This document shows, piece after piece, positions 8,985 through 58,384 of a stretch of DNA of 64,000 bases. A program made the position numbers and the translations under genes. Source of the DNA: Lacinutrix sp. Hel_I_90 (GTDB taxonomy: Bacteria; Bacteroidota; Bacteroidia; Flavobacteriales; Flavobacteriaceae); contig NZ_JYNQ01000001.1 of the NCBI RefSeq assembly GCF_000934685.1, positions 558,001 through 622,000 on the forward strand, in the 5' to 3' direction. The notes under the pieces are model-generated. The model worked only from the letters and a program-made list of their open reading frames with translations. It was not told where the DNA came from and made no database searches. Numbering within the stretch: position 1 is the stretch's first letter; each line of letters opens with the position of its first letter.

Positions 8985-8987
8985 TTA

Positions 8988-40496: not shown

Positions 40497-40640
40497 AATT
40501 GTTTTGTTTTTAAGGTAAAATTTAAATTTAAGGGTTAATTTTTAAGTGTGAAATTTAAGTTTTTCTTTATTAAATTTAATGTTTGTTAGTTCTTTTTTTA
40601 AATGTAAATTTATTTTTTTTTATAACCGTTTATAATTGTG

Positions 40641-41666: not shown

Positions 41667-41952
41667 TCGTATAAAAATAGAAAAGATAAGATTAAATCTT
41701 AACCTAGGTATTTTAGTCTATTTCTGCTTTATTATTGGTGTATACTATTTTAAAGTTGAAACACAAATTGTCAAAGTTATTGGAGAGTTATTGACCATTC
41801 CTGCGCTGTTAGGCTTAGTTGCTATTCCTATTTGGGCTTTAATAGATAATTTCAGGAACAAAAACGAGAACACATCTAGATACGTTGTTACTCTTTTAAT
41901 AACATTGCTCACATTTACCTTATTGTTTGTTGCAAATTCATATTTGAATTAA
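41659..41952 (+). CDS. Small membrane protein
   Basis: A 97-residue protein with three hydrophobic segments (LGILVYFCFIIGVYYF, LLTIPALLGLVAIPIWALI, YVVTLLITLLTFTLLFVA) and basic/Asn-rich loops. The ATG overlaps the last codons of hutG by 8 bases and the next gene starts one base after its stop, so it is in the same operon and probably translated by coupling. Family unknown. Confidence 0.7.
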   Translation: MNNRIKIEKIRLNLNLGILVYFCFIIGVYYFKVETQIVKVIGELLTIPALLGLVAIPIWALIDNFRNKNENTSRYVVTLLITLLTFTLLFVANSYLN

Positions 41953-41953
41953 G

Positions 41954-42430
41954 ATGAAGATTGTTCCCTTTAAAAACGAATATTCGAAAGAATTTTACAA
42001 TTTAAATACAGAATGGCTTAAAACCTTTTTTTACGTCGAACCTTTTGATGAAGAAGTATTATCTAAACCTGAAACCTATATTATAAACAAAGGGGGCTAT
42101 ATCTTTTTTGCTTTACTAGATAATAAAGTTGTGGGTACAGTTGCTTTAATGCCATTACCAAAACAAGAGGCTTTCGAACTGACTAAAATGGCCGTCTCAC
42201 CCAAACATCGCGGACATAAAATTGGTCAGAAACTAATGCAACATTGTATTGATTTTGCAAAGACAGAAAACTTCAACAGACTACTTCTCTATTCTAACAC
42301 AATTCTCGAAAACGCCATCTATATCTATAGGAAACATGGTTTTATTGAAATTAATGTAGAAGCAAACTGCCCTTACGAGCGTTGTAATATTAAAATGGAA
42401 TACGTTCTAAACCGCCCTAAAAATAAATAA
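41954..42430 (+). CDS. GNAT-family N-acetyltransferase
   Basis: A 158-residue protein with a complete single GNAT domain: GGYIFFALLDNKVVGTVALMPLP (beta strands 2-4), then FELTKMAVSPKHRGHKIGQKLMQHCID with the acetyl-CoA loop RGHKIG, and the C-terminal LLLYSNTILENAIYIYRKHGF. The acceptor substrate is unknown. It is the last gene of the hutG-membrane protein-GNAT run. Confidence 0.9.
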   Translation: MKIVPFKNEYSKEFYNLNTEWLKTFFYVEPFDEEVLSKPETYIINKGGYIFFALLDNKVVGTVALMPLPKQEAFELTKMAVSPKHRGHKIGQKLMQHCIDFAKTENFNRLLLYSNTILENAIYIYRKHGFIEINVEANCPYERCNIKMEYVLNRPKNK

Positions 42431-42492
42431 AAGGGTGTTTTTCCTGTATATAATTTAGTTTTTACACTCCCCCAATAATAGGTATTGAACTC

Positions 42493-42523
42493 TTGAAAAC
42501 TATTGGTTTCAGTTATACTTTTG
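42493..42523 (+). promoter_or_regulatory. Candidate promoter for the secreted-paralogue operon
   Basis: TTG (42493-42495), 20 bases, then TACTTTTG (42516-42523), the full TAnnTTTG -7 match at the expected spacing. The ATG of the first gene of the 14-kb block is 27 bases further at 42550. No comparable site is seen between later genes of the block. Confidence 0.55.
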
Positions 42524-42549
42524 AACCATAATTTAAGAATACATATCTT

Positions 42550-44949
42550 ATGAAAACTACAACCTCAAAAATAAGAATAGAATTAGTACTATGCTTCTTA
42601 GTAACTTTTATCACACAAACACTATGTGCACAAAACTTTAGTGGCTTACAGAATAAAGATTTAAATAAAATAGATGATGTAACAGGAGTACTTAGTGATA
42701 TTCTTTCCAATTTTAATGGTAAAATTGACAAGGCCACTGTAACATACGACAGTGAGCGAACATTAAAAGTAACTGTACATTTTTCTGGTACCCAAGATGG
42801 CTATTTTATAGCCAATGTATTAGCTGGCGATAAAACCAGCCAGCGTGAAATTTCTAAAATTGAATATTCACTAGAAGGAAAATCTAGCCCATTAGAACTA
42901 GAGTTCTTTTTATCTGAAAACGCCACTGAAGGTACAGCGCTATCCTCTGCCTATCTTGAAATTAAATTATCCGAAAGTAAAAATAAGTTTGTTAAAAAGA
43001 CCTTTTTATATGCTTTAAACAAGAACTGGAAGAAAGATATTAGTCCTGAAAATCTTATCATACCAATAACGCTAGAACCTATTGGTAGTGCCGCAAATTT
43101 AAAAGAAAACATTAAAACTATTGTCTTACCAATAAAAAAACCTGTATTAAAATACGACAGGTCAAAAATTAAAAATGTTGCTTTATATAAGCCAAGCAGG
43201 GCCGTAACCAATGTTAGAACTCTTAAAGCAGAAACGCCTACCTCAACCAATACTTCTACTATCGATGGTACATGGGAAAACACCGATAAAAACACAAGAA
43301 GTATTACAAAAATTATTATTTCTAATAATGGTACAAAAATTCAAGCCTTTGGTAAGTGCTCTCCTAAAGACTGTGATTGGGGAACGACAAGATTATCATC
43401 GAGCAGAGGTACTTATTATGCCACTTTTAAATTGAGTAATGGCACATCCTCTTTTAATTTTTCTATAAAAGACAATGTTATGAGTAATACACATACAAAA
43501 GTCTATAAATTGGCTTCAAAACCTAAAAAAACGACTAACAGTACGTTCAAAAAACAAATTACTCCGTTATTAGCTGCAGTTTATTATCCTTCTCTAACGA
43601 CAACAAGTACAACTGCTACAACAGAAACTACTCCTCCAGCAGATATGCAAGCGCAAGGACCAGACAATCAAGCCATATCATTATGGGAAGATTTAGTTGC
43701 AGACAATGATTTTGAATTTCCTCATGAAATCACAAATATAAGAATGGATATTTATCCAGATAAAAATAAAGCTTCTGGTATTTTTTATTATTTGCCAACA
43801 GCATATCACTTAAGATGGAATAAAGATGAAGGCTATAATTTTAAAATGACCTATGGTACAGCAGATAATGCTGAATCTACTGGAGATGTAAGAATGACAG
43901 GGACACTAACACCTGGAATTACCTCTAATGAAGTGGCTTTAATGAAATCGCTACTAGAATCTTATGTAAAAGACAATCCGCTTTACACGTATAAAGAATT
44001 AAAAATAATGCCTTTACAATCTGTACCTGCAATTTCAATTTCAGCGGGATTAGAAGGCCATTACAATATTCCTGCAAATAAAATTAACGTCTCCGTATCA
44101 TCATCTATTACAAACCCTATTGATATTTCTTGGGTAACCGATAGCAATACTAAAGAAGAAATGCAAGTCTCATTAGCACAAAGTATTGGTATTAATGGAG
44201 AAATGACTTTAGTACCTGATAGTGAAACTGTTCCTAGCCAGCTTATTCCAGTACGAATAACAATATCAGACCCTAGAACTATTGGGCGTTTTACTTTAAC
44301 TCCAAACCAATGGAGAAATGAAAACTGGGTAAATACCACAGATTTTCCTTTAAGACTAAAGAAGATACATGCGTTGATTATTGAAAAGCAAGGCAATAAA
44401 TCTATTCCATTAATTTATTCTTGGGATTTAAATGATACTGAAGTTCCCTCTAAAGCTAGTGTAAACTTCAATACATCCAAAATGCCAAGTTGGATTGAAA
44501 CTGAAAATAAAACAGAACGTATCTGGATTGATTATAACATTGTGGATTGCACCTCTTGTGTTAATAAAGTGATTGATAATCTTATTGATGGCACAATAAG
44601 TAAGGAGAAAAATATCTCTTTCGAAAGCTTCAAAATATTCGATGCTACTAACGCGGCTTTCTTAAAAATAAGAGTAAGAGCTATACAAGCAGATCCTAAA
44701 AAAGAACGCTTAATAGAACTACCGCCTGTTAGAGTTACAGAAGATTTATCTGTCTTCTCGACAGGACCTTTATACTTATCTGATGAAGAAGCACCAAGTT
44801 TTGAATATTACTTATCTGTAGTTATGGATGATGGTGTTGTGTACGATGCAGCAGATTGGATTCCTGCCAGCGATGTAGAAGTCTTTATAGGCATGCAAAA
44901 TCTAAAAGCTGCAATTCCAGAGTTAAATACACTAATTACAGAAGACTAA
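42550..44949 (+). CDS. Large secreted multidomain protein, first gene of the paralogue operon
   Basis: A 799-residue protein with signal peptide ending TLCAQ. Parts: residues ~30-200, beta-rich; ~239-325, a compact domain with GTWENTDKNTR and AFGKCSPKDCDWG (two Cys) that I have seen in secreted bacterial proteins but cannot name; ~330-375, Thr-rich linker; ~395-799, a region sharing the layout of the following paralogues. That layout opens with IFYYLPTAYHLRWN and ends in a beta-rich segment with IPLIYSWDLND and ERIWIDYNIVDC. It has no T9SS C-terminal signal or lipobox. It is probably exported to the periplasm or cell surface. Confidence 0.75.
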   Translation: MKTTTSKIRIELVLCFLVTFITQTLCAQNFSGLQNKDLNKIDDVTGVLSDILSNFNGKIDKATVTYDSERTLKVTVHFSGTQDGYFIANVLAGDKTSQREISKIEYSLEGKSSPLELEFFLSENATEGTALSSAYLEIKLSESKNKFVKKTFLYALNKNWKKDISPENLIIPITLEPIGSAANLKENIKTIVLPIKKPVLKYDRSKIKNVALYKPSRAVTNVRTLKAETPTSTNTSTIDGTWENTDKNTRSITKIIISNNGTKIQAFGKCSPKDCDWGTTRLSSSRGTYYATFKLSNGTSSFNFSIKDNVMSNTHTKVYKLASKPKKTTNSTFKKQITPLLAAVYYPSLTTTSTTATTETTPPADMQAQGPDNQAISLWEDLVADNDFEFPHEITNIRMDIYPDKNKASGIFYYLPTAYHLRWNKDEGYNFKMTYGTADNAESTGDVRMTGTLTPGITSNEVALMKSLLESYVKDNPLYTYKELKIMPLQSVPAISISAGLEGHYNIPANKINVSVSSSITNPIDISWVTDSNTKEEMQVSLAQSIGINGEMTLVPDSETVPSQLIPVRITISDPRTIGRFTLTPNQWRNENWVNTTDFPLRLKKIHALIIEKQGNKSIPLIYSWDLNDTEVPSKASVNFNTSKMPSWIETENKTERIWIDYNIVDCTSCVNKVIDNLIDGTISKEKNISFESFKIFDATNAAFLKIRVRAIQADPKKERLIELPPVRVTEDLSVFSTGPLYLSDEEAPSFEYYLSVVMDDGVVYDAADWIPASDVEVFIGMQNLKAAIPELNTLITED

Positions 44950-44985
44950 ATATTTTTATTCACCTCTTTATACTACAACCTCATC

Positions 44986-46107
44986 ATGATTTCTAATAGA
45001 AACCTATTCGTTTTATTATTGATTACTTCATTTACTTTCTCATTTGGGCAGGCAAATTTAGACTCGAAACAAGTCATTGATGATCTTGTCATTTTTCAAG
45101 ATTATAACGATGCTAGCGTCTACTATTATGCGCCTCAAGGTTTAAAATTAGTTGTAGATAAAGCAGGGAAACCTAGTTTCAAATTTATACAAATGCGTTA
45201 CACAGGAACGCGTGCCACTACAGATCAAGGGGATTTCCGTTTTAAAAGTCTCATAAGTCTTAAAGTCGCCCAACACGTGCCAGAAAAAACGAAGATAGAC
45301 AGTATTAAAAACGTCTTATTGCAACGTGGATACCCTGTTACAACTTTTAAAAGTATGGGGTTAAGTAATATAAATGCAAAATTAATTCATGCTGCAGATG
45401 CTTTTATAGATTCTACAAAAACAATTTCTAATGGCTTTTTTGAAGAAGCGACTATGCCAGCTCAAAACACTAATTGGAAAGAGCGTGACTTTACTATTCG
45501 ACTTAATAGTAAAGATGCTCAAATATTCTGGGAAGGGTTTAAAAGTAATCAGCCAACAATAAGTGTTGATTACAGCTTTCACGCTAAAGTCTTTAGTAAT
45601 AATAACAGCGCTCTAATAGTAGATGGTAGTGAAGCATTTGAAACCGCGATTATAGCGAGTATAGCAGAAAAAGATAGTACGCGTATTAATCTTAAAGAAG
45701 TGATTGTGAATGCTGGTGCAATACCAATAGTTATAGACACAGAGCGTTGGCCTGATCTTATTAAACAAATTGATATAAATGAGCAAATACCTCCTGATTA
45801 CGCTGTAATAGACATTTACTGTTATGATTTTAATAATGAATTAAGAGCTGATTTGTATGCAAAACGCATAGAAATAAAAGCGACGGGCGTTGGAGGAAAA
45901 GAGGTGAAAATAAAAAAAACATTTAAGTATGATACCCCTGAAGTGTATGCTCAAACCACTCAATTTATGAATGCTATAAAATTAAGTGAGCCATACCTAT
46001 ACAGAATTACCGAGGTTTTTCATGACGGAAGCTATCACAAAACAGATTGGATAGCTAAAGCATCCTGGAATGAAATTCTCGACATAACAACAAAACCAAA
46101 ACATTAA
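44986..46107 (+). CDS. Secreted protein of the paralogue family, short form
   Basis: A 373-residue protein with signal peptide ending FSFGQ. It shares the opening motif of the family (ASVYYYAPQGLKLVVDKAGKPSFKFIQMRY) and the following strand-rich core, but lacks the GGxxH motif and the long C-terminal half. The last ~100 residues (AVIDIYCYDFNNELRADLYA, YRITEVFHDGSYHKTDWI) resemble the C-terminal WY-type strands of the others. It starts 36 bases after the preceding gene and 14 bases before the next. Function unknown. Confidence 0.7.
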   Translation: MISNRNLFVLLLITSFTFSFGQANLDSKQVIDDLVIFQDYNDASVYYYAPQGLKLVVDKAGKPSFKFIQMRYTGTRATTDQGDFRFKSLISLKVAQHVPEKTKIDSIKNVLLQRGYPVTTFKSMGLSNINAKLIHAADAFIDSTKTISNGFFEEATMPAQNTNWKERDFTIRLNSKDAQIFWEGFKSNQPTISVDYSFHAKVFSNNNSALIVDGSEAFETAIIASIAEKDSTRINLKEVIVNAGAIPIVIDTERWPDLIKQIDINEQIPPDYAVIDIYCYDFNNELRADLYAKRIEIKATGVGGKEVKIKKTFKYDTPEVYAQTTQFMNAIKLSEPYLYRITEVFHDGSYHKTDWIAKASWNEILDITTKPKH

Positions 46108-46121
46108 TAAAATTAGAAATC

Positions 46122-47933
46122 ATGAATACTATAAAAACACTAAAAGCATTTGGTTTACTATTCTTAATGAGTTTTCATCTTTTTGCAACCGTAAAATATG
46201 ATGAAGGAAGAGTAGAAATAGATGGCATTCAATTATTACAAGATAGCGAAGATGATAACGCTTATTACTATCTCACAAGATTTGTAAGGTTATCTCAAAA
46301 AGAAGACGGCAGCTATGAATTACTCTGCATTAAATATGTTGGAGAAAACGAAGATTCTAGCGGCGGGTTGTTTCACGCTTTAGTCGAGTTTTCATTGCCT
46401 CAAGACATTATTAATACCGTTCAGGCAAAGCTTAAAGCGCAAATAGGAGAAAATGCAAGAATAGTAGGACCTGTACCCATGCAACAATATACTAAAGACG
46501 GAGAAAAAGGCATTGGTAAGTTTGACGTGGTTTCTTCTATTTTAACTGATACCGAAGGAGAAAAAGCGTTTACTAGAAATGTGTTAACCTCAGGATTTGC
46601 ACCGTTATTACCCAACTCTAAAGCAGCTATTGCTGCAAAATTAAATCCTAATGGAGCAACTCTATTGTGGGAATCATTAGTAGGTGGTGGAACATCTGAT
46701 GTTTCGGTCTCTGTTCATGGCTATTATGAAGCTGTGGTAAAAGGATATAATGCTATCATCACTGCTGAGGCGAGTACTATTTACGAGCATTACAGCAAAC
46801 TTAGTAATTTTCAAGAAGGTTTTACAAGAGAGCAAATGCGAAAAATCACAAATGAAATGCTTCAAGACCAAGTATTAAACATAGAAGTGTTTGATAGGTC
46901 TGAAGGCTTAGGTATAGATAATAAAGCGATGACAAGTATTTTAGATATTGTTAGCGAACGCATCATAGAGTTAATGTTTGACACCCAGACCGGTTGGGCT
47001 CAAAAACCTGTTGAAGAAGTTGCTGTTGAACTAAATCAAATTAAAGGGAGACAAGATCGCGGTTGGTTTGATAACATCTTTGGTGGAAAGGACAATACAG
47101 AGTATTACTCAGACAACCAATATGTAATTAAAAGAAGAGAAGATATTCGAATGAACAAATTCTACCTTAACCTTTCTAAAACGACGACAATAAAAGTACC
47201 TATTCATACTTCGGGAAACCTAGGTGGTTTATATAGTGAAATGCAAAATGATGACCGCTATTTTAAAGTTATTAATCTTGCAGATTCAGATTTTCAAAAA
47301 AGGGCTGTACATTTTCAAATAGATGGCGAGTTTAAAGATGCCTTTAATGAACTCTTAAATTCTGTATCGGTTTCTTTCAAAAAAGTCTATGGTGGTGATA
47401 CAGATGATGCCACTGGTAGCTTAATCTTTACAGGAAAAGATGTTTCTGAAGGTAAAGACTTTAAGGCGCTCATCTATCCGAGATTAGGAATAACCAGTAG
47501 TGAGTGGTTGAATTACGACTATAAAATTAGCTGGAATCTAAAGGGAGAAGAAAAACCAATACTAATCCCCAAAGCAGTTGATTTGTGGAAAGCCGGAAAT
47601 GCCTCATTAACAACATTAACCCCGCCATTTAAAAAAAGAACTGTAGAAATAGATGCTGATAAATCTGGATTTAAAGAAAGTGGAATACGCTCTGCTTCTA
47701 TACGTTTTTTCACAGTGCTTAATGGCGATGCAATTCCTCATAAAACACTAATAATTAGAGATACAGATACCGAAAACACGTCTAAAGTTAATTTGTTTTT
47801 TGATGAAGGAGAACCAATTGCTTATCAAATAACTTGGTATAGTAAAAAGGGAAAGTATTCAGAAAAAATTAAAGCGTTAGATCAAGACTATTTATTTCTA
47901 ATCACACCGTCTACTGAAGACTTTAACGATTAA
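46122..47933 (+). CDS. Secreted protein of the paralogue family
   Basis: A 603-residue protein with signal peptide ending HLFAT. N-terminal half: AYYYLTRFVRLSQKEDGS, SSGGLFHALVEFSLP, RIVGPVP, VVSSILTD, APLLPNSKAAIAAKL, ATLLWESL, all of which recur in the neighbours. C-terminal half: FQKRAVHFQIDGEFKDAFNE, LNSVSVSFKKVYGG, WLNYDYKISWNLKG, PPFKKRTVEIDAD, YQITWYSKKG. A non-conserved segment joins the two halves (~290-350, DRGWFDNIFGGKDN). It is mostly beta by pattern. The gap to the next gene is four bases. Confidence 0.75.
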   Translation: MNTIKTLKAFGLLFLMSFHLFATVKYDEGRVEIDGIQLLQDSEDDNAYYYLTRFVRLSQKEDGSYELLCIKYVGENEDSSGGLFHALVEFSLPQDIINTVQAKLKAQIGENARIVGPVPMQQYTKDGEKGIGKFDVVSSILTDTEGEKAFTRNVLTSGFAPLLPNSKAAIAAKLNPNGATLLWESLVGGGTSDVSVSVHGYYEAVVKGYNAIITAEASTIYEHYSKLSNFQEGFTREQMRKITNEMLQDQVLNIEVFDRSEGLGIDNKAMTSILDIVSERIIELMFDTQTGWAQKPVEEVAVELNQIKGRQDRGWFDNIFGGKDNTEYYSDNQYVIKRREDIRMNKFYLNLSKTTTIKVPIHTSGNLGGLYSEMQNDDRYFKVINLADSDFQKRAVHFQIDGEFKDAFNELLNSVSVSFKKVYGGDTDDATGSLIFTGKDVSEGKDFKALIYPRLGITSSEWLNYDYKISWNLKGEEKPILIPKAVDLWKAGNASLTTLTPPFKKRTVEIDADKSGFKESGIRSASIRFFTVLNGDAIPHKTLIIRDTDTENTSKVNLFFDEGEPIAYQITWYSKKGKYSEKIKALDQDYLFLITPSTEDFND

Positions 47934-47937
47934 AATC

Positions 47938-49674
47938 ATGACACTTAAACTCATATATATCATCATATTTAGTATCTGTATTCAAGTTGCAAATTCACAA
48001 CAAGTGTATATAGACCAAGGGATACAAGTTAATGGGTTGTGGTGTTTCCCCACCCATAACAATCCTAAAGAATACCAATATCTTCCTACGCGATCTCGAT
48101 TAGCTTTAGATGAAGACAAGCATCCTAAATTCTCATTTATGAGATATATAACGGAGCGTCCTACAACAGAAGATACTACTAGTAGTATTAAAGAAGCTGG
48201 TGGTGGTGGCATCTTACATTTTTTAATTTTATATGATACCCCTAAAACGCAAGTTGAAGACGCTGAACTTTTATTACAAGAACGGTTTGAAGATGACACA
48301 TTTAAAATTAAGGGTCCTATTCTTTTTGAAACTGGAAAATATGCCTTGGTGTCTTCTATTCTTAACGGTGTCACCAACGAAAGGGAACAAAAAGTTATTT
48401 CTATGGGGGAAGCTCCCGTTATGGAAAATAGTAAGATTGCCCTGTCTTTTGATGTAGATCCTTTGCACTCAAAACTATTGCTTGAAAGTTTTAAAATGGA
48501 CACTCCAGACATCTCTATTATGTTCGATTTAACGTTCTCTGGGCTTACTGAAGCTTATGATGCCACACTGGAAATAGACTGGTCTGAAATTAAAAAGAGT
48601 GTCAGTTTTGGCGCTGGTGGAACCATTTATTTTGTTGGTGCAGATGTAGAATTTGGCTTAGACGAATTATTCAAAGACAATAGTATAAGACTCATTACCA
48701 ATGGAAGCGATGCTAATTTAGAAGCGTTATTAACAACGGTATACGACAAGCTTCTTGAACTCATGTTTAAGCCGGTCGAGCCAGCAATTGTTCCAGAAGA
48801 ACAACAAGGCGGTATTATGGATGCGGTTACCGCTTTAATAGGTGAAGACGGCCCTATATCTAGTGGAAATACTACTGGTTTTGGATTAAATGCATCTTTC
48901 CAACGAAAAGAACTAAGATCTGAAGGGCAATCACGATTATTCTTTAAAGGACGTTCTACCGTTTTTCGCCATCACATACTAACCTTTAATATTGGTGACT
49001 TATATCAAAATTATGGAAACGACACACGCTTTTTTAGGGACGTTCCAATATGGGATCCAGCATTTCAGCAAAGAGAAGTATTTGTTGGTGTTGATGGTGA
49101 TTTAGAAAAAGAGTTTGAAAGCATGCTAAATAGTGTCACCCTTTCAGTCAGAAAAAAACATTTAAATGGTAGTGAAACAGTTAAAGAAGTCTTTTTAAAT
49201 AAGGAGCGCTTTAAATCTTACGAAGGTAATTTATCAATGTTCTATTTAAATCAAGGGGATACTATACAAACAGATTGGCTAAACTACCAATACAAAACCG
49301 TTTGGAAATTTAATGGTGGTGGAAGTTATGAAAGTGAATGGCTTGACGAAAACGGTGCAATGGTGAACTTGTATGTCCCATTTAAAAGGCGAAAAATAAT
49401 TCTAGATGGCAATTTGAAAGCTTTAGAAGCCCAATCTGTAAAAGCGATTTCTGTTTTAGTGGATTACCCCTTTTTTGATAAAACAAAAACACACCGTTTA
49501 ACATTAAGGCCTAATGACATCCTTGAAGAAAAGAATTTCGACATCACTTTACCAAATACTGAAGAAGAAGTCAATTATACCATAACCTGGTTTATTGAAG
49601 ATCAACCCAGTATAACCAAACAAGCCAAAGATAAATACGGTTTAATTTTTATTGATGAAATACCAAAGGACTAA
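47938..49674 (+). CDS. Secreted protein of the paralogue family
   Basis: A 578-residue protein with signal peptide ending VANSQ. It carries the full set of family motifs: YQYLPTRSRLALDEDKHPKFS, GGGGILHFLILYD, KIKGPILFETG, LVSSILNG, KLLLESFKMDTPDISIMFD, EIDWSEIKKS, YDKLLELMFKPVEP. The C-terminal half has FQQREVFVGVDGDLEKEFES, LNSVTLSVRKKHLNG, WLNYQYKTVWKFNGG, LPNTEEEVNYTITWF and a FIDEIPKD end. It is probably the most typical member. Its TAA overlaps the ATG of the next gene (TAATG). Confidence 0.75.
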   Translation: MTLKLIYIIIFSICIQVANSQQVYIDQGIQVNGLWCFPTHNNPKEYQYLPTRSRLALDEDKHPKFSFMRYITERPTTEDTTSSIKEAGGGGILHFLILYDTPKTQVEDAELLLQERFEDDTFKIKGPILFETGKYALVSSILNGVTNEREQKVISMGEAPVMENSKIALSFDVDPLHSKLLLESFKMDTPDISIMFDLTFSGLTEAYDATLEIDWSEIKKSVSFGAGGTIYFVGADVEFGLDELFKDNSIRLITNGSDANLEALLTTVYDKLLELMFKPVEPAIVPEEQQGGIMDAVTALIGEDGPISSGNTTGFGLNASFQRKELRSEGQSRLFFKGRSTVFRHHILTFNIGDLYQNYGNDTRFFRDVPIWDPAFQQREVFVGVDGDLEKEFESMLNSVTLSVRKKHLNGSETVKEVFLNKERFKSYEGNLSMFYLNQGDTIQTDWLNYQYKTVWKFNGGGSYESEWLDENGAMVNLYVPFKRRKIILDGNLKALEAQSVKAISVLVDYPFFDKTKTHRLTLRPNDILEEKNFDITLPNTEEEVNYTITWFIEDQPSITKQAKDKYGLIFIDEIPKD

Positions 49675-50354
49675 TGAAAAAATGTACTAAAAACATAGCG
49701 TTTTGTTGTTGCCTTATTATAGCTATTAACGGTTATGCGCAAATAATCTGTCAAGAAACAAAAGAAAAAATAACATTGAATAGTGGCAACTCGGTTTACG
49801 TTTATCAAGAAAAAAACACAACCGATTCACCAACTTACTTTTATGTTCCCACGCAACTTAATCTCTCTGAACGCAAAGGACAACCAGAATATTCATTTCT
49901 AGAATATAAAAATCTAGGAAGTGTTACACCAGATGGGGCTATTCTACATATGCTAATCACCTGGGGATTGAACAATAAGGAGCTTAGCGAATTAAGACAG
50001 TGTATTAAACACCTCTATGGTGACAGTGCCACTTTATCTGGAGCTCTCTATTTAAATAATAAAGCCTCAGGAATTACAATAAACACAAACACAAAAATAG
50101 GACAAATACTTAATAGCGCACTTAAAAGTAAAGGTGTTCCCCCTACCCTTTCTAGTGGTAAGATGGCGCTCTCCTTCAGATTAAAAAAAGAAGAAGTGAA
50201 CTTAATAAGGGAGGCCATAAAAAACAAGTCTGGATTTAGTAAAACACTTTTAAAAATCAATTATTCATATAATACAAATACTTGTAAAGGCTCAATTTCA
50301 TTAGCTAAAAAGAATGAACTAAGTCTTGAAGGTCATTTACAAAACTGGTTTTAA
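49674..50354 (+). CDS. Secreted protein of the paralogue family, N-terminal half only
   Basis: A 226-residue protein with signal peptide ending NGYAQ. It matches only the first half of the family: TYFYVPTQLNLSERKGQPEYSF, DGAILHMLITWGLN, ATLSGALYLNN, SGKMALSFRLKKEEVNLIREA. It ends with SLEGHLQNWF, where the others continue for 300-400 residues. No continuation of the C-terminal half is readable downstream, since the next gene starts one base after its stop, so this is a stable short form. Start TAATG-coupled to the preceding gene. Confidence 0.7.
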   Translation: MKKCTKNIAFCCCLIIAINGYAQIICQETKEKITLNSGNSVYVYQEKNTTDSPTYFYVPTQLNLSERKGQPEYSFLEYKNLGSVTPDGAILHMLITWGLNNKELSELRQCIKHLYGDSATLSGALYLNNKASGITINTNTKIGQILNSALKSKGVPPTLSSGKMALSFRLKKEEVNLIREAIKNKSGFSKTLLKINYSYNTNTCKGSISLAKKNELSLEGHLQNWF

Positions 50355-50355
50355 A

Positions 50356-51072
50356 ATGAGACTAACACTAATACATATCATCAAGATTAAAATCATCATA
50401 ATTAGTTTATTATTGATACAGCCTGCTTCCGCAGAAACTAAGGACATCTATTTGGTCTTCTACGCGACAGCAAATGGTAAAAGTGGTCATGTAGGCATTG
50501 CTGTAGATAATTACAAAGTCATTGTTAAAGATACTTTTGATGAAAATAATAATAGAATAGCTGTTTATGACACGATTAAAAATGGTGCTTTATCTTACTA
50601 TGATCTTTGGCCAAAAACAGACGATTTCAATGCCTTTAACGTCGATAAAAATGTACCTGCTCAATACTTTAAGTTACCCTCCGCCTCATGGGAGAATGAT
50701 ATAACCATTGCTAGCCTTATAAAAACAGGATTGCCGCATGAAGAATTCTATCCTGTCGATGGATTATTACAAATAACATCTTCAGTAAAAGAAGACCTAG
50801 AAATTAAAAAATACATAGCAGCTCTAATAAATAAAAATCAAGACTTTAATGTACGTGATTTTAATTGTGCAGATTTTGTTGAATTGATTATAGAAAAACA
50901 ATGTCACTGTGACATTAAAGCAGATGAATCTATAGTATTACAAAGGTCTACTACACCAAACAGGATTTATCAGGAAGTATCAAAACTAAAGAATATAAAG
51001 ATAATTAAAGACGCTAGTGAAAAAGCAAAAGGAGCGTTTACGTCTGAACGCTTACTAAAAAGAAACCAATAA
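50356..51072 (+). CDS. Secreted papain-like protein (permuted NlpC/P60/LRAT-type), putative amidase/peptidase
   Basis: 238 residues from the ATG at 50356. A TTG-started longer reading overlaps the previous gene and is not needed. A hydrophobic export signal is present (IIKIKIIIISLLLIQPASA). A His in KSGHVGIAVDNYKV (His45) and a later Cys in NVRDFNCADFVELIIEK (Cys171) follow the His-first, Cys-later order of circularly permuted NlpC/P60, YiiX and LRAT-like enzymes. A second Cys pair (CHC, ~183-185) may be structural. It sits inside the run of paralogues, so it may process them or the cell wall; this is inference. Confidence 0.65.
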   Translation: MRLTLIHIIKIKIIIISLLLIQPASAETKDIYLVFYATANGKSGHVGIAVDNYKVIVKDTFDENNNRIAVYDTIKNGALSYYDLWPKTDDFNAFNVDKNVPAQYFKLPSASWENDITIASLIKTGLPHEEFYPVDGLLQITSSVKEDLEIKKYIAALINKNQDFNVRDFNCADFVELIIEKQCHCDIKADESIVLQRSTTPNRIYQEVSKLKNIKIIKDASEKAKGAFTSERLLKRNQ

Positions 51073-51103
51073 CAGTAATTAATCATTTAATAAACAGATA
51101 AAA

Positions 51104-53062
51104 ATGAAAACAATTAAAAAACAGTTGAAAATTGTACTATTGAGGAATTCTTTTCTCCTATTAGTACTTAGCCTATTCCTTTTTCAAGGATTAGAGGCAC
51201 AAGTGATAATGGACTCTCAGAATAAAGTCGACATTTCACTTGACGATGGAACTCAAGTAACGCTATATGGTAAGGCGATTACAAGAAGTAATTCTTTTTC
51301 TAGTGAGTATGTGTATCTACCAACAAATCTGCATTTATCTAAAAGACCAGATGGAACTCCAGAGTTTTTATTCTTAAAATATACGACAGAAGAAAGAGAA
51401 GATGCTGGTGGCGCACAAGGTGGACTGATGCATTTTTTAATGGAGTGGGGCTTAACCTCAGAGCAAGAAGCAGAAGCTCAAGAAAAACTAAAGGAAAAAA
51501 TTACAGAATTAAATAAAAATTCAAGAAGTAAATACAGAAGAGTAAAATCACCTGTTATCCTTGGAGCAGCAGATGTTACTGTAGAAGATGGTAATTCATT
51601 TAGAATAATCTCTTCAATTTTAACCGATGAAGGCATGGCCAAAGTTGTTGCTTCTGGAAACGCCTCTCCTATTCCAGGTAATAAAATTGCTGTTGCTGCA
51701 AAACTCGACAAAAATGCTGCACAATTATTAGCGGCTACATTTGAAGAAAACAGGTCAATTACTGATGTTTCTATAGAACTTAGCTTTAAATATGATGTCT
51801 TATTTCCAGCTGTAGATGGTAAAATTGTAATAGACTGGAAAAAAGTTGAAGAAACATTTGAAACCTTTTCTTCGGAATATTCACATGACAGAAAAGAAAC
51901 TAAAACAGGAAATGATGACACCTACTCTTATGCAGAGGTCGATAGTATTTACAATTCTGCAATAGAAAATAAAGCTGTTATTTTCGAAATAGATAAAAAC
52001 ACGACTGATGATGAAGTCGCTAATCAAATTGTAGAAAGTTTTATGAATGTCTTTACTGAAGCGCTAACAGACAGGGATGCTACTGCTCCTCCTGCACCAC
52101 CTAGCGATGAAGAATTAGAAGCAAACCCAAATGCAAAGTATGGCGCAAGTTATACTTATAGCCGTACAAAAGCAGAGAAAAGATTTCAGCGGCTAAGAGA
52201 AGTCTATAGATTAAAATACCGCGTCGCAATTCCAAAAATGATGCCTTTAACGGGCAATCTTGGTTCTTGGTACGATGGAGTGAGAGACAACCCAAAATGT
52301 ATTGCGTCAGTTAACTTAAACGATCCCTTTTTCCAGCATAGAGACATTAATCTTATTCTAGACATAGAAGCAGAAGATATGTTTGGAAAAGAAGTGAATT
52401 ACGTCACGGTAAATATTAGAAAAAAAAGAAATCAAGGCAACGATTTTGAAGATCAGGTTACTATTGACAGAAACTACTTAAAAGAAAAAGGCATTAGAGC
52501 GGCACTAACCTATGCGCGTGGTGAGGATAAAAATCCAGAAGCCTATGAATACAAAATGCAATGGAGTTTAAAAGGGGGCCATATCTATCCTGAAAATCCT
52601 AATTGGACAGTTGGAGACTGGGAAGGTGTTACACTTGCAGCTCCTGTAACGCCAAGATTAATAGAAGTAGAAGCAGATATCGATGAGCTTAAAGATAATG
52701 ATATTGTTAGAGTTACCGCGGCTATTCGCTATTACCGTTTTGGTAAAGAAGAAGAAACTAATATTCCATTAACCGTCTCTAAAGAACAAATGCTGGTGCC
52801 AGAAACCATATTTACAGATAGAAATACTAAAGGCTATGCTTATCGTCTAATTTATACACATAAAAAAGAAGGAAAACTGGCCATGCCTTGGGAAACAAAA
52901 ATAAATGACAACTATATCTATGCTTCAGTTCCTGAGGAATTTCAAGACAATGAATCTGAGTTATTTAAAGAAGCTAAAGTGGCTGGGACAGAAATTTTAG
53001 AAACAGTAAAAAAGAGTGTCTTAGATAAGTTTAAAGATTTAATTAAAGGAGATGAAAACTAA
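51104..53062 (+). CDS. Secreted protein of the paralogue family, long form
   Basis: A 652-residue protein with signal peptide ending GLEAQ. First-half motifs: YVYLPTNLHLSKRPDGTPEFL, GAQGGLMHFLMEWGL, RRVKSPVILGAAD, IISSILTDEG, GNKIAVAAKLDKNAAQLL, KIVIDWKKVEETF. The joining segment is charged and Pro/Asp-rich (~320-350). Second-half motifs: FFQHRDINLILDIEAEDMFGK, VTVNIRKKRNQGN, YEYKMQWSLKGGHIY, PRLIEVEADIDELKDN and YRLIYTHKKEGK. The end is Lys-rich and helical (VKKSVLDKFKDLIKGDEN). Its stop lies inside the next gene (11-base overlap). Confidence 0.75.
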   Translation: MKTIKKQLKIVLLRNSFLLLVLSLFLFQGLEAQVIMDSQNKVDISLDDGTQVTLYGKAITRSNSFSSEYVYLPTNLHLSKRPDGTPEFLFLKYTTEEREDAGGAQGGLMHFLMEWGLTSEQEAEAQEKLKEKITELNKNSRSKYRRVKSPVILGAADVTVEDGNSFRIISSILTDEGMAKVVASGNASPIPGNKIAVAAKLDKNAAQLLAATFEENRSITDVSIELSFKYDVLFPAVDGKIVIDWKKVEETFETFSSEYSHDRKETKTGNDDTYSYAEVDSIYNSAIENKAVIFEIDKNTTDDEVANQIVESFMNVFTEALTDRDATAPPAPPSDEELEANPNAKYGASYTYSRTKAEKRFQRLREVYRLKYRVAIPKMMPLTGNLGSWYDGVRDNPKCIASVNLNDPFFQHRDINLILDIEAEDMFGKEVNYVTVNIRKKRNQGNDFEDQVTIDRNYLKEKGIRAALTYARGEDKNPEAYEYKMQWSLKGGHIYPENPNWTVGDWEGVTLAAPVTPRLIEVEADIDELKDNDIVRVTAAIRYYRFGKEEETNIPLTVSKEQMLVPETIFTDRNTKGYAYRLIYTHKKEGKLAMPWETKINDNYIYASVPEEFQDNESELFKEAKVAGTEILETVKKSVLDKFKDLIKGDEN

Positions 53063-55067
53063 AAACAGAAAAAACACAGTAATGCAATGGCTATTATATG
53101 CTTTAGTCATGTGCGCGATAAATGTTAGTTACGGCCAACAAATAAATTTGGATAAGGTTGTTAGAGCCGGAGAGTTAACTTTGTTTCAAGAGTTAAGAAA
53201 CCCAAAATCTTGGTATTACATCATAGATAAACCAAGTATCGCTAAGGACGAAAATGGGATACCTAAATTCTCTTTTTTAAGATATGTAGACAACGTACGT
53301 TCTGGAAGTGATGAAGCAGAGCTAAGGGAAGGAGATGGTGGCGGCATCGTACATGCTCTGATAGAACTTGGTGTCACAAAAGATCAAATTAAAGATGCTC
53401 AACGAGAATTAAAAACCCTAGTGCCTGAAGGTGTTATTAAAGGGCCTGTTATTTATAATGATGGAACAATAGCTATTATCTCTTCTTTTGCGAAAGCCGA
53501 TGGTGAACTCACAAAACAAGTTTTAGGTATTGGAAAAGCGCCTATTTTAGATGGTCAGCGGGCTGCAGTCTCTATTCAACTTACTAAACAAGGTGCAAAG
53601 ATTCTTTGGGAATCATTTAAAACACCAACGCCAGACATGAGTATTTCTTTCGAGATGAATTTATCAGGTTATCGTTCTCCAAAAAGAGCGCTAATTGAAG
53701 CAGATTTTGAACAAGTCTACAAACATAAAAGTTTTGAGGCTGGCATTTCTGCACCAGTACTAGCTGCCGAAATTAAATTAGCTTTTGATGATTTAGTAAA
53801 AAAAGGAGATATTAAAGTAACACAGATTGGAAGTGACGAAGATCTCCAAAAAATCATGGAATCTGCGTATAATAAAATTCTAGCAATGATGTTTGATCCT
53901 GTTGGAGGGACAGGTACACCCAGTTTAGGGTCATTAACTTCTGGTGCCACTGGTAATACACCAAGCTTATTAGATAGAGCAACAACGATGTTAAATACGG
54001 CTAGAACAGATGCCAGAACAGAAAACACACGCATTAGAGCAGCCAATCAAACAGAAAGAGAGCGTGTTGCCAGAGAGAATGAGAGCCGTGCAACCAATAG
54101 TAGTACCGCAGCGCCCTCTACCGAAACCAGCGCGGCAACTACAACAGATTCAACAACAACTAGACCGGTAACCGCTAGAGCTGCTAGAACACCTATGGCA
54201 ACGCCACAGCACGCCAGAGAAACAAGCCCCTCTGACTCCGCCCCTGCTGAACCCAATCTACAACAGGAAGAAACAGTGCCTTCATTTGCTGTGGCTGTAT
54301 CATTCCAAATGAAAGAAATTAAACAACGTGGTATTTTTAAAATTGATCTTAATAAATATACAACGGACAATCTCACATTGCGATTCGATAAAAATTTTGG
54401 CAACATCAATTGTGACAAATGCTTTAAAGAAGTGAATTTAGACGATGCACTATTTAAGCAAAGAGAGCTTGTCGCTTTTGTGGATGGTAGTAATGCGACC
54501 GACTTTGGAAGCTATATCAATTTTGCAACTTTAGCTATGAAAAAAAAGCATCAAAGTGGAGCGATTACTAATGATGAGGTGCGGATTGATCGTAATAATT
54601 TTAATAAAGAAGGTAACAATTTCAAACTCTTATATGGATGGCAAGGCGATGATGATAGAAGCAAATGGTTGGATTATGAATATAAGACAACATGGAGCTT
54701 CTTCGGTGGCCATAAAGTTGAAGGAGAATGGACTAAAAATGACCAAGGCGCTATAGCCATTGCTCCACCGCTACTTAATAAAAAAATTGCGATTGAAATA
54801 GATCCTAGCTCCATTGAGGGAAGCGATATTCGAGTTATAGATGTAAAACTATTTTATACTATAGGAGACAAAGAACAGCTAAAAAATGTAACCTTCTTGG
54901 TTGGTAAAGGAGAACTTTCAAAAGAAGAGCATATTATTCTTCCAAGAAACACTGAAGAATATGGCTATGAAATAGTTTGGAATTTAAAAGGAAATAAAAC
55001 AGTATCATCTGGAAAATTAGCGACAACATCGAGTGTGCTTTTTGTTGATGACCTTCCAGAAAATTAA
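53052..55067 (+). CDS. Secreted protein of the paralogue family with a Thr/Ala/Arg-rich linker
   Basis: A 671-residue protein; signal peptide ends NVSYGQ. First-half motifs: SWYYIIDKPSIAKDENGIPKF, GDGGGIVHALIELGV, VIKGPVIYNDG, IISSFAKAD, ILWESFKTPTPDMSISFEM, YNKILAMMFDPVGG. A low-complexity linker of roughly 115 residues follows (about 285-400; ATSSTAAPSTETS-like, then RAARTPMATPQ). Second-half motifs: FKQRELVAFVDGSNATDFGS, ATLAMKKKHQSG, WLDYEYKTTWSFFGGH, NKKIAIEIDPSS, YGYEIVWNLKGN, with a FVDDLPEN end. The ATG overlaps the previous stop by 11 bases. Confidence 0.75.
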   Translation: MKTKNRKNTVMQWLLYALVMCAINVSYGQQINLDKVVRAGELTLFQELRNPKSWYYIIDKPSIAKDENGIPKFSFLRYVDNVRSGSDEAELREGDGGGIVHALIELGVTKDQIKDAQRELKTLVPEGVIKGPVIYNDGTIAIISSFAKADGELTKQVLGIGKAPILDGQRAAVSIQLTKQGAKILWESFKTPTPDMSISFEMNLSGYRSPKRALIEADFEQVYKHKSFEAGISAPVLAAEIKLAFDDLVKKGDIKVTQIGSDEDLQKIMESAYNKILAMMFDPVGGTGTPSLGSLTSGATGNTPSLLDRATTMLNTARTDARTENTRIRAANQTERERVARENESRATNSSTAAPSTETSAATTTDSTTTRPVTARAARTPMATPQHARETSPSDSAPAEPNLQQEETVPSFAVAVSFQMKEIKQRGIFKIDLNKYTTDNLTLRFDKNFGNINCDKCFKEVNLDDALFKQRELVAFVDGSNATDFGSYINFATLAMKKKHQSGAITNDEVRIDRNNFNKEGNNFKLLYGWQGDDDRSKWLDYEYKTTWSFFGGHKVEGEWTKNDQGAIAIAPPLLNKKIAIEIDPSSIEGSDIRVIDVKLFYTIGDKEQLKNVTFLVGKGELSKEEHIILPRNTEEYGYEIVWNLKGNKTVSSGKLATTSSVLFVDDLPEN

Positions 55068-55078
55068 AATATAAAACA

Positions 55079-56563
55079 ATGAAAACTTTAAAATATATTC
55101 AAAAAAGCAGTTTTTTAATGCTATGCTTACTATTTATTGGAAATAGTTTTGCGCAAAATGACCGCTCTATATTAAAAGATAAATTTAGATTTATCTATAT
55201 AGCCAACCCAAACAGTACCAGCTCCATAATTTTGAATAATAATCAAATTTATAGCGGTAACGAAACGGGGACTTTCTGGACCAACAGTAATATGGGACGT
55301 AGTCAAGCTTTAGTAAGAGCTTTACTTAGGGATAATGGAAATGGTGGTGATCAAACACTTCAATATTTTGCATCAAAAATTGTTAAAATAGTAGATAAAC
55401 CAGTACTGGTGTATCTCTATGATGATACTAATGTTACTCTCACATCAGCTTCAATTCAAAGATGGGGTTTATGTGCAGATGATCCTAATAGTGCAAACCC
55501 TAAAGCATGGCCTTGTGCTAATAACCAATCTTTGGCCGATGATTTTTCGCAAAACATCGCCAGATGTTTAGGAAATCCAGATCCCGGGAGAACAGATGAT
55601 CGCTGGGGAGGCTATATGCATTTGGGGGCGCATCATTTAAATGCACATCCTGTGATATGGACCAAAGGCACTTTTATTCACGAATTGGTGCATACCCAAG
55701 ATATCTCTGATAATAGAATGCATATGTTCTGGGTCAATGGATCAAATTTTCGCTACGGATTAGACGGCAATCATTATGGAATAGAAGCGGTACCTAATTT
55801 AGGGATGACTTACAAGGAAGGGATTGCAAACACAATTACCTTACTTTATGATAATACAAAATCTTCAGACATGTTCAATTGGTTTAAAGACAACGAAGCA
55901 CTTATTGTAGAAATAAATCCCAATCCTGAAGGCACAGGTCCAGGAAACGTACACAGATGCCTTGATGTTACTCACCCAAGTCCTGATGCGTGGCTATATA
56001 ACGTTATGATGGATGCTGGTGAAACCTCGTTAAGAACTGTAAACGTTCCTTCAGGAAGCACAAACCAATATGCGGTCTTTAAAATTAGAGACGTAGCTCC
56101 TAAATTTATAGTTCACAATGAATTTATTTTAGCACTGATTTTTTCTGAATATGCGCATCATATATCACTTGGTAGATTTATTTCTGCATTACACTATTCA
56201 AACAATCAGTTATTTAGAGTTTGTGCTAGTGGTGTTGCCGTACTTTTCGAAAACATGTGTATTGAAGGTATTCCTGAAGGAGAAACGCTAGCCAGTTTAT
56301 CACAATCTCAATCCGGTATAACAGAAAAAAAATATTTGCTTCCTTTAGCATTTGCTGACTATTTTACGTCTTACAGATCTCAAACTAAATCAGACTTTGA
56401 AACTATTTTTGAAAATGCACTGCCACAAGGTTGGATTGATCTTTATTGGGACACTGCAAGAACAACTGTTAGAAATGCCGTTCCTATCACCACTCCTGAA
56501 AGAGGAGACCTTACAGATATTGCTATAGCCTTAGGCATAACAACATCTTCAATAGATGATTAG
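55079..56563 (+). CDS. Secreted HExxH-motif protein, last gene of the paralogue operon
   Basis: A 494-residue protein with signal peptide ending NSFAQ. The zinc-site motif is HELVH (201-205, in GTFIHELVHTQD). Glu247 in MTYKEGIANT or Glu236 in YGIEAVPN could be the third ligand, as in gluzincins. The body is long, with conserved-looking segments RWGGYMHLGAHHLNAHP and NEFILALIFSEYAHHISLGRF and several Cys pairs. Whether it cleaves peptides is unproven. It follows the last paralogue by 11 bases and precedes the terminator at 56696. I do not recognise the family. Confidence 0.7.
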   Translation: MKTLKYIQKSSFLMLCLLFIGNSFAQNDRSILKDKFRFIYIANPNSTSSIILNNNQIYSGNETGTFWTNSNMGRSQALVRALLRDNGNGGDQTLQYFASKIVKIVDKPVLVYLYDDTNVTLTSASIQRWGLCADDPNSANPKAWPCANNQSLADDFSQNIARCLGNPDPGRTDDRWGGYMHLGAHHLNAHPVIWTKGTFIHELVHTQDISDNRMHMFWVNGSNFRYGLDGNHYGIEAVPNLGMTYKEGIANTITLLYDNTKSSDMFNWFKDNEALIVEINPNPEGTGPGNVHRCLDVTHPSPDAWLYNVMMDAGETSLRTVNVPSGSTNQYAVFKIRDVAPKFIVHNEFILALIFSEYAHHISLGRFISALHYSNNQLFRVCASGVAVLFENMCIEGIPEGETLASLSQSQSGITEKKYLLPLAFADYFTSYRSQTKSDFETIFENALPQGWIDLYWDTARTTVRNAVPITTPERGDLTDIAIALGITTSSIDD

Positions 56564-56857
56564 AATAAACTCCTGCAATCTCAAGCCATTGAAACGGTAT
56601 ACTTTTATGTGCTTTATTTGAGATTGTCTTTGCTAATTTAAAATATGAGGTTGTAGTCATTATAATTCGTAAAGTTCACAGATAAACACATGAAGAAAGC
56701 TCTAAGTTTTAACTTAGAGCTTTTACTATTGTTAAGTACATGTATTCAAAAGAAAACGGCTGTTGTTATATGTGATATTCTTTTCAATTATAATTGAGCA
56801 ACGGTTGTACTCTAGTTTAAAGCGCCTTATTAAAATAGGATTTTAAATAAACATAAT
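56564..56857. other. Non-coding stretch between the secreted-paralogue operon and the regulator
   Basis: About 290 bases with no supported gene. It contains the terminator at 56696-56724 and, further on, AT-rich sequence leading to the palindrome and -7 element of the regulator gene. No RNA gene is visible. Confidence 0.6.
56696..56724 (+). terminator. Strong terminator closing the secreted-paralogue operon
   Basis: AAGCTCTAAGTT / AACTTAGAGCTT is a perfect 12-pair stem with a two-base loop and ends in TTTT. It lies 133 bases past the last stop of the block. Confidence 0.8.
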
Positions 56858-56869
56858 GCGAACGTTCGC
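56858..56869 (+). promoter_or_regulatory. Perfect palindrome, candidate operator of the XRE regulator
   Basis: GCGAACGTTCGC is a perfect 12-base palindrome, GC-rich in an AT-rich gap. It is 26 bases upstream of the -7 element, so a bound dimer would cover the -33 region. Autoregulation is the simplest reading. Confidence 0.5.
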
Positions 56870-56895
56870 TACAAATAAATAATCGCAAAAAAACG

Positions 56896-56903
56896 TATCT
56901 TTG
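56896..56903 (+). promoter_or_regulatory. -7 element directly in front of the XRE regulator start codon
   Basis: TATCTTTG, full TAnnTTTG match, five bases before the ATG at 56909. The message would be nearly leaderless. It also shows that the in-frame GTG at 56903 is not the start. Confidence 0.5.
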
Positions 56904-56908
56904 TGTCA

Positions 56909-58384
56909 ATGGAAGAAGAATACATCAAACTCATTTTTGGCTTAAAACTAAAGCAGATACGGACTGACAAGAATTTGTCTTTATTCGGATTGTCTAAACT
57001 TAGCGGTTTATCTAAGTCCTATTTAAACGAAATAGAAAAAGGCAAAAAATATCCTAAACCAGATAAAATTGCACTATTAGCTGAAAAATTAGATGTTCCT
57101 TATGATCATTTCGTATCCTTAAAATTAGACAAAAATCTGGCTCCCATTGGCGAAATACTACAATCAAAAATCTTAAAAGAAATTCCTTTAGAGGTTTTTG
57201 GCATTGAAGAAAGCACACTTATAGACATCGTTTCCAATGCACCTGCAAAAGTAAATGCCTTTATAAGTACCATTATTGAAATTGCCCAGCATTATAGTTT
57301 TAGTAAAGAAAGTTTTTATTTAGCTTCTGTTCGTTCCTTTCAACAAGCAAACAATAATTATTTTGATGATTTAGAGCAAAGTGTTGTCCAGTTTGCTAAA
57401 GCCTATCAAATTGATTTAAACAAACCCATTTCATCTTCAGAATTAGAGGAGGTTTTGATAGAAGAATATGGTTACACTATAAATAATAAAGATTTAGAGA
57501 AACATAAAGAGTTAGACACCTTACGTTCTATATTTATCCCGAAAACAAAAACACTATTATTAGCGAATCACATCGATGATGCCCAACGCAGCTTTATTTA
57601 CGCTAAAGAATTAGCCTATAACATCCTTAAATACAAAGCGCGTTTGTACACCTTCTCTTGGATTAAATTTGAAAATTTCGATCAGGTTTTAAATAATTTC
57701 TATGCGTCGTATTTTGCTGGTGCTTTATTACTACCGCGCACTATTATGACTAAGAAACTCACTAAACTTTTTAATAAGAAAGCATTTGACAGTGATGCCT
57801 TTGTTACGATTGCTGAGTCCTTTAACGCCTCTCCTGAATCCTTTTATCAACGGTTAACAAATATTTTACCGAAAGATTTTAATCTTCAGAATTTATTCTT
57901 TTTACGATTTGTGCATAAAAAAGATGATAAAAAATTCTATCTAAATAAAGAACTGCATTTAACGCATCAACATTCGCCTCATGCTAATGAAACTGATGAA
58001 CATTATTGTAGACGCTGGGTATCACTAAAAGTATTACAAGACATCGTAAAGACTAATGATAATCATGTTTTTGACATTCAAATTTCGCATTATCCAGACA
58101 GCAAGCATTCTTATTTAATTTTTTCTTCGGCTACTAGAGATCCTTTTAAAACAGATCAATACAGAAGTGTTAGTGTTGGTTTATTAATTAATCAGCAATT
58201 AAAGCGTAAGATTACTTTTTGGGATGATCCCTCAATAAAGCGGTTTAACGTGGGGGTTACTTGCGAACGTTGTGCTATTAGTGATTGTAAAGAGCGTATG
58301 GTCCCTCCTGTTCTATTAGAAAAAGAGCAAAAAAATTTACAAATTGAAGCAGTTGTTGAAGATTTATTTAAGCAATTTAGCTAG
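56909..58384 (+). CDS. XRE-family transcriptional regulator of the ScfR/RamB type
   Basis: 491 residues from the ATG at 56909. N-terminal helix-turn-helix (~8-65: KLKQIRTDKNLSLFGLSKLS, SKSYLNEIEKGKKYPKPDKI), then a long middle region containing an IrrE/peptidase-like segment (~170-300), without a visible HExxH, and a C-terminal Cys-containing domain (VGVTCERCAISDCKERMVPP). This is the layout of short-chain fatty acyl-CoA regulators (RamB, PrpC2/MccR). These control acetate/propionate or glyoxylate metabolism and usually regulate themselves. No aceA/aceB genes are in this window. A perfect palindrome lies upstream. Confidence 0.85.
   Translation: MEEEYIKLIFGLKLKQIRTDKNLSLFGLSKLSGLSKSYLNEIEKGKKYPKPDKIALLAEKLDVPYDHFVSLKLDKNLAPIGEILQSKILKEIPLEVFGIEESTLIDIVSNAPAKVNAFISTIIEIAQHYSFSKESFYLASVRSFQQANNNYFDDLEQSVVQFAKAYQIDLNKPISSSELEEVLIEEYGYTINNKDLEKHKELDTLRSIFIPKTKTLLLANHIDDAQRSFIYAKELAYNILKYKARLYTFSWIKFENFDQVLNNFYASYFAGALLLPRTIMTKKLTKLFNKKAFDSDAFVTIAESFNASPESFYQRLTNILPKDFNLQNLFFLRFVHKKDDKKFYLNKELHLTHQHSPHANETDEHYCRRWVSLKVLQDIVKTNDNHVFDIQISHYPDSKHSYLIFSSATRDPFKTDQYRSVSVGLLINQQLKRKITFWDDPSIKRFNVGVTCERCAISDCKERMVPPVLLEKEQKNLQIEAVVEDLFKQFS

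Follow-up and report, generated by a model that had tools for sequence, protein, structure and literature searches.

We describe an operon of nine tightly spaced genes at positions 42550–56563 on the plus strand of a 64,000-nucleotide stretch of the Lacinutrix sp. Hel_I_90 genome (contig NZ_JYNQ01000001.1, positions 558,001–622,000; this whole stretch is called the window below, and positions given without a locus name count from its first letter). Six of the nine genes encode members of one paralogue family for which the libraries we searched hold no name, and their relatives form multi-gene cassettes in several phyla, in which distinct classes recur in a fixed order, at most loci beside an enzyme gene. 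We propose that different paralogues may assemble into a hetero-oligomeric scaffold whose task is to hold or deploy an interchangeable enzyme, a reading that we regard as evenly poised.

The count of six members (44986, 46122, 47938, 49674, 51104 and 53052) is firm. Class profiles A–D, built without window sequences and used with an E-value limit of 100, jointly match exactly six of the 66 window frames of at least 100 codons, leaving the other 60 unmatched, and at the same limit they match none of the nine operon proteins in reversed form. BLASTP links the members directly, with E values of 2.8e-47 for 47938/53052, 1.3e-29 for 46122/47938, 8.6e-28 for 46122/51104, 4.7e-14 for 49674/51104 and 1.2e-9 for 44986/53052. 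Both lines bear out a first-pass annotation of the window, which had seen six paralogues of one family. The same annotation had noted a like layout in the C-terminal region of the 42550 product; that region does match class F, but not at a significant level when the sequence is used singly. Its best BLASTP E value against the other eight operon proteins is 0.26, and alone against the class F profile it reaches 0.051, which is not significant, while hhalign aligns 215 C-terminal columns of a two-row profile of 42550 and L051:3175 with class F (probability 87%, E 4e-6). Judged by these alignments, 42550 is a probable seventh member, of class F; 50356 and 55079 lie outside the family.

No search placed any member in a characterised family. 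All nine operon proteins lack a match at E ≤ 0.001 in Pfam (best 0.064), NCBIfam (best 0.019) and PHROGs (best 0.0078); PADLOC at 0.01 gave no match for the five of the nine that were tested or for the class A protein of locus L014, and Pfam at 0.1 gave none for ten paralogues from loci L008, L010 and L011. An 81-row profile of the N-terminal domain (N-domain) found two matches among PDB sequences, at 0.39 and 0.43, neither of them credible. The fold prediction of 47938 that had been suggested at first pass yielded AlphaFold2 models, with a predicted local distance difference test score of 84.9 and a predicted template-modelling score of 0.65 for the mature protein (86.7 and 0.72 for the N-domain alone), in which a linker of poor model quality joins a mixed alpha/beta N-domain to a C-terminal region of Ig-like beta-sandwiches. 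For the confidently modelled N-domain, no Foldseek row from the PDB reached E ≤ 0.001, the best rows being Asf1 and GH3 enzymes with a query-normalised template-modelling (TM) score of at most 0.22 among the matches listed, a similarity of the model that we take to be chance. The full model gave 19 rows at E ≤ 0.001, with TM about 0.1, all of them strings of Ig/MG-type sandwiches. Alpha-2-macroglobulin and complement proteins, which likewise contain such strings, figure among the top rows (CD109, C4, C5 and C3); we rejected this likeness as one of generic sandwiches, TM being about 0.1 among the matches listed, with no domain-level match and an unmatched N-domain. A keyword-based search of titles and abstract starts, with most subscription papers and preprints beyond its coverage, found no paper on the family. 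Because library, fold and paper searches gave no relative, we regard the family as newly described and without a name in the libraries searched, in agreement with the first-pass annotation, although a specialist source elsewhere could overturn this. General Pfam and NCBIfam scans of the operon turned up no type IX C-terminal sorting domain, and no dedicated search for one was made.

With a single window protein as query, the Lacinutrix genome holds the family at the window locus only, and none of 39 other genomes of its genus, family and order gave a match in this search, which is less sensitive than one with a profile. A profile search of the phylum, as proposed at first pass, finds the family to recur, in seven of 395 same-phylum genomes including its own; genome G146, of the same phylum, is close to the Fermentimonas locus L012 (82%). 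When species genomes were scanned with an N-domain alignment of three rows, 40 loci emerged from nine phyla, a single one of them archaeal. They are placed in Bacteroidota, Bacillota, Actinomycetota, Pseudomonadota, Acidobacteriota, Chloroflexota, Cyanobacteriota, Aminicenantota and one Methanosarcinales archaeon; since many loci are metagenome bins, single phylum assignments may be wrong, and since the scan patterns favour genes near class A of three seeds, the locus counts are lower bounds. Two of 296 genomes match in the phylum of genome G444, namely the search centre and one already found among the 40 loci. Plasmids that carry the family belong to Pararhizobium and, in two cases, to Paracoccus. 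Iterated profiles recover 231 open reading frames (ORFs) in 49 stretches, partial or overlapping ones included. The loci are not independent, four of them coming from one Cohnella genome and near copies occurring among Rhizobiales and Paracoccus, and genes outside the window were called mechanically, with merged or mis-started frames at GC-rich loci. The result is a family that has neither name nor model in the libraries searched and whose operon logic is conserved over several phyla, and a small gene set with a testable assembly.

Locus L007 (genome G426) was rejected as a relative, as it carries an RND pump frame. Phage origin was rejected as well: a single query, from L006, matched none of 50,697 phage records, and pattern scans of viral contigs gave 46 and 51 stretches, none of which was confirmed as family. 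Cohnella faecalis has several cassettes (L036, L038, L048 and L049), with divergent pairs at L048 and L049 and many broken frames, and at the Sphaerisporangium loci L029 (15–4232) and L031 (1–4085) two extra family genes lie on the opposite strand ahead of the cassette.

Class profiles reveal the transcription order F-E-D-C-B-A at 17 loci from six phyla (G146, L012, L013, L014, L016, L017, L019, L020, L023, L024, L025, L026, L027, L030, L032, L034 and L045). Class D is a separate gene at seven of the 17, is fused to E at L012 and L013, and is unlisted at eight; L032 is also without a listed E, an overlapping frame masks B at L016, and L017 carries an additional C-like gene. Locus L008 has the order F-E-C-C-B-A, and the Rhizobiales, cyanobacterial and Paracoccus cassettes have orders that are related to the common one yet different. 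A careful tree was built from 42 rows of classes A–D at 11 loci, excluding L016, L019, L027, L030 and L032. Each of the four classes forms a single cross-phylum clade in it (bootstrap 99–100), spanning Bacteroidota, Bacillota, Actinomycetota, Acidobacteriota, Pseudomonadota and the archaeon; the tree carries a warning that the branches separating C from D are long. Because the class clades cross phyla, the classes seem older than the spread of the cassette.

At most other loci the class A–C genes start with ML.. and show no apparent signal peptide by eye. The extracytoplasmic setting assumed at first pass holds, on the same kind of inspection, for the window branch, for L051 and probably for the gene of genome G263 (L068), but not for the class A–C genes of most other loci. 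In a quick tree the window members fall, with weak support, beside L051, the exported set from Aminicenantota, and 47938 and 53052 are sisters (99) inside a set that includes three L051 genes (97). The window operon is thus no textbook A–F set but an exported, divergent branch that has undergone its own duplications.

Companion seed profiles, which recover their own seeds, were run over 44 loci, and at 30 of them one of four enzyme kinds adjoins the cassette: DMATS-like proteins at 13 loci, caspases at nine (three loci have both), C39-like proteins at seven and PLD at four. Like the classes and their order, this linkage belongs to the non-exported relatives. Fourteen loci are without the four kinds, and six of these stop in or before class A (L018, L028, L033, L034, L045 and L046). 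Caspase identity is solid, all four proteins tested lying above the Pfam cut-off, with the Cys motif in ten of 11 frames and a strict SGHG in five of 11. To our knowledge, the roles of bacterial caspases are mostly unsettled, and tying them to a defined multi-gene partner makes their activation testable. The PLD partner also lies above its Pfam cut-off. The DMATS-like partner resembles DMATS-type ABBA prenyltransferases (CymD, PDB 6os3): six of its eight PDB profile matches are of this type (best 1e-4; a lectin comes second at 0.0024), one of six members matches in Pfam, under the cut-off, at 0.005, and an invariant Glu lies within a P-x-E motif. The resemblance is to the partner gene and not to the paralogue family, and no DMATS-like gene was found in the window operon. 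The C39-like label follows from Cys, Gly-His and Asn-Pro motifs seen by eye, with no Pfam or PDB support. A toroid-like partner was set aside as weak, the PDB rows shown being nearly all antibody light chains with one terpene cyclase at 0.063; a Paracoccus protein has a weak Pfam squalene-cyclase match (0.076), and no CGEQ-type motif, as in thioester proteins, was seen by eye in the toroid-like partners.

Ten long class A proteins (L015, L017, L020, L022–L027 and L030, not L021) carry an OmpA-like insert. Its profile, of which all ten inserts are source rows, has 14 PDB matches with E values of 0.0055 to 0.38, 13 of them to outer-membrane or periplasmic proteins that we take to be OmpA-like and the last to an esterase. 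Eight of the ten inserts occur at DMATS-like loci and two (L015 and L023) at loci without a recognised enzyme; the insert is found at none of six caspase-only loci and is missing from five of the 13 DMATS-like loci. At L066 (7560–15067), from a same-family genome, a family gene lies between a papain gene and an N-acetylmuramidase gene about 3.3 kilobases on (Pfam).

In the window itself, the ORF list bears out nine plus-strand genes where the first-pass annotation had put them, with successive intergenic distances of 36, 14, 4, −1, 1, 31, −11 and 11 bases (the distance of 1 base assumes the ATG at 50356 as start) and flanking intergenic stretches of 119 and 339 bases. By eye, each of the nine N-termini resembles a signal peptide, as had also been noted. 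The genes at 50356 and 55079 had been listed merely as exported proteins, and their motifs suggest that they look like peptidases as well. In 50356, the order of His (GHVG) before Cys (NCADFV) is one that we take to be of the permuted NlpC/P60 or LRAT type, and in 55079 HELVH with a downstream EGIAN, which would supply the Glu ligand, may mark a gluzincin-type zinc metallopeptidase. Pfam, NCBIfam and PDB searches give no support for the hydrolase reading of the former or the metallopeptidase reading of the latter. Among 389 other same-phylum genomes, 50356 has weak relatives in two (G124, 8e-9; G062, 4e-4) and 55079 has none.

The operon is present or absent as a whole unit, forming an island that the same-genus genome G008 lacks (Table 1). 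Window positions 39774–42402 align with L096 1–2628 (82.7% identity) and 56889–58383 with L096 2702–4196 (84.7%); the left edge of the island falls 28 base pairs (bp) ahead of the stop of a GNAT gene and the right edge 14 bp before the frame of a regulator at 56903. The GC content of the island (0.350) equals that of its flanks (0.343 and 0.337), and the search for exact direct repeats at its ends gave nothing beyond a single AT-rich one of 10 bp. Genome G007 was rejected as a second clean empty site, the same flanks lying about 3.5 kilobases apart there, and six of 13 genus genomes are without a match to the 56903 regulator, which together suggest that the site itself varies. The G008 comparison alone does not separate gain from loss; gain is the likelier, because a single-protein search found the operon protein in none of the 12 other same-genus genomes (three of them less than 90% complete). 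The regulator (56903–58384), which lies outside the island, combines a helix-turn-helix, an IrrE-like M78 domain and a ScfR-like C-terminus and is weakly RamB-like; its G008 counterpart is matched as three pieces, with stops present.

The proposal of an enzyme-bearing scaffold draws on the unity of the family, the order shared by 17 loci, the class clades, the enzyme linkage, the absence of the unit from G008, the tight gene spacing and the structure model. Several different subunits, about six in full cassettes and most likely one copy of each, would come together by way of the N-terminal domain that they share, forming a hetero-oligomeric scaffold; the C-terminal Ig-like beta-sandwiches and the neighbouring enzyme would act outside the scaffold core, with sandwich parts or linkers perhaps holding the enzyme. 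In the window, the putative Cys/His hydrolase 50356 and zinc metallopeptidase 55079 would then act outside the cytoplasm. What we infer here is the assembly, its stoichiometry, the binding of the enzyme, the localisation and the substrate. The hetero-oligomer suggested at first pass is in part supported, by paralogues kept in one operon and by recurring classes and order. Since distinct classes recur in a fixed order from Bacteroidota to an archaeon, a hetero-oligomer is better supported than a set of surface proteins diversified within a single lineage.

Several points weigh against this proposal. Eight loci (L015, L023, L029, L031, L048, L049, L051 and L066) are not cut short and have none of the four enzyme kinds, and one of them, L051, is the nearest exported relative of the window operon. 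Class labels in the tree were assigned beforehand, from position and the quick tree, to loci that are not independent. The scores of the window members against classes A–D are low and almost equal, and 47938 and 53052 are a sister pair, so a one-of-each composition is not established for the window branch, whose members do not sort cleanly into the classes. The putative window enzymes were read from motifs, and assembly and function are read from genes alone. A bolder version, which we hold tentatively and with more doubt than belief, joins several claims: an undescribed pan-prokaryotic machine would be built as a ring or stack, from about six obligate paralogous subunits present once each, with an N-domain fold unmatched in the PDB; whole cassettes would spread between phyla and into archaea; lineage-specific enzymes (caspase pairs, DMATS-like prenyltransferase, C39-like or papain proteases, PLD, metallopeptidase) would be mounted on it; and the window branch would have moved the machine outside the cytoplasm.

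The main rival shares the assembly step with the scaffold and differs in purpose. As a sensor-effector conflict system, which we consider rather unlikely, the paralogues would sense an invader or damage and their assembly would activate the enzyme, the exported branch being aimed at rivals outside the cell. The caspase genes at nine of the 44 loci, the sporadic presence and the island nature of the operon are in keeping with this, as is the Paracoccus plasmid cassette L011, where genes for trypsin-EAD1, EAD1 and AAA/STAND-like proteins lie upstream (4414–9301); an annotated tyrosinase lies downstream (27800–28843). The EAD/STAND NTP-dependent conflict systems (Kaur et al. 2020, PMC7159879), as far as the passages at hand describe them, are likewise multi-gene cassettes of sporadic distribution with caspase or trypsin partners, and their EAD1 component is the one in the Paracoccus cassette; those passages make no mention of the paralogue family. 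PADLOC, however, is negative for the five window proteins and the L014 class A protein, the DMATS-like enzymes at 13 loci do not resemble effectors, and by Pfam search the window operon has no recognised NTPase or nuclease, none of its nine proteins matching an EAD or STAND/NTPase component.

We think it improbable that the paralogues serve as structural or adhesive proteins, exported to the surface or matrix and cut or anchored by the neighbouring peptidases without any defined complex. Export by eye, the C-terminal Ig-like sandwiches and the peptidase-like genes within the operon would suit such a role, but most relatives have no apparent signal peptide, adhesin diversification would not call for a gene order and class clades shared by six phyla, and prenyltransferase-like and PLD partners do not fit. 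Far less probable still, and rejected here, is that the paralogues belong to an extracellular contractile injection system (eCIS) or are its payload: Pvc16_N, contractile sheath and gp19-type tube genes do lie about 1.9 kilobases downstream of the cassette at the archaeal locus L017 (16627–20796), and Pvc16_N occurs in 11 of 39 family-holding genomes, but the linkage is seen only at L017 among the loci examined, the paralogues have no detected sequence relation to eCIS, Pvc16_N is not matched in the window genome or G146, its contig differs in size from the cassette contig in all eight genomes checked of the 11 (one contig each), and neither the single query of phage records nor the pattern scans of viral contigs gave a confirmed family member.

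Table 1. Features of the operon and of the island that contains it, in window positions
Positions	Strand	Feature	Basis
42403–56888	.	Island, 14,486 bp in the window against 73 bp in same-genus genome G008	
42490–42525 (approximate)	+	Putative Bacteroidota-type promoter, TTG..TACTTTTG	Read by eye
42550–44949	+	First gene; 799 residues, probable class F; YYLP motif near residue 415	hhalign
44986–46107	+	Divergent family member, 373 residues	Profiles A–D; BLASTP
46122–47933	+	Family member, 603 residues	Profiles A–C; BLASTP
47938–49674	+	Family member, 578 residues	Class profiles; structure model
49674–50354	+	Short member, 226 residues, N-domain only	Profiles A and D; BLASTP
50356–51072	+	Exported (by eye); GHVG..NCADFV, putative thiol hydrolase	Motif by eye
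51104–53062	+	Family member, 652 residues	Profiles A–C; BLASTP
53052–55067	+	Family member, 671 residues, sister of 47938, low-complexity linker	Tree, BLASTP, profiles
55079–56563	+	Exported (by eye), 494 residues; HELVH..EGIAN, putative zinc metallopeptidase	Motif
56695–56724	+	Terminator-like stem-loop, 13 pairs	Site scan

Upstream of 42550, TTG...TACTTTTG fits by eye what we take to be the Bacteroidota promoter consensus; a sigma-70 scan of the region gave 58 sites against 65.2 in shuffles, which is no excess. As to the strong terminator noted at first pass, terminator-like sites in the region (8, against 9.6 in shuffles) show no excess, but the stem behind the operon has the most pairs among the eight sites listed.

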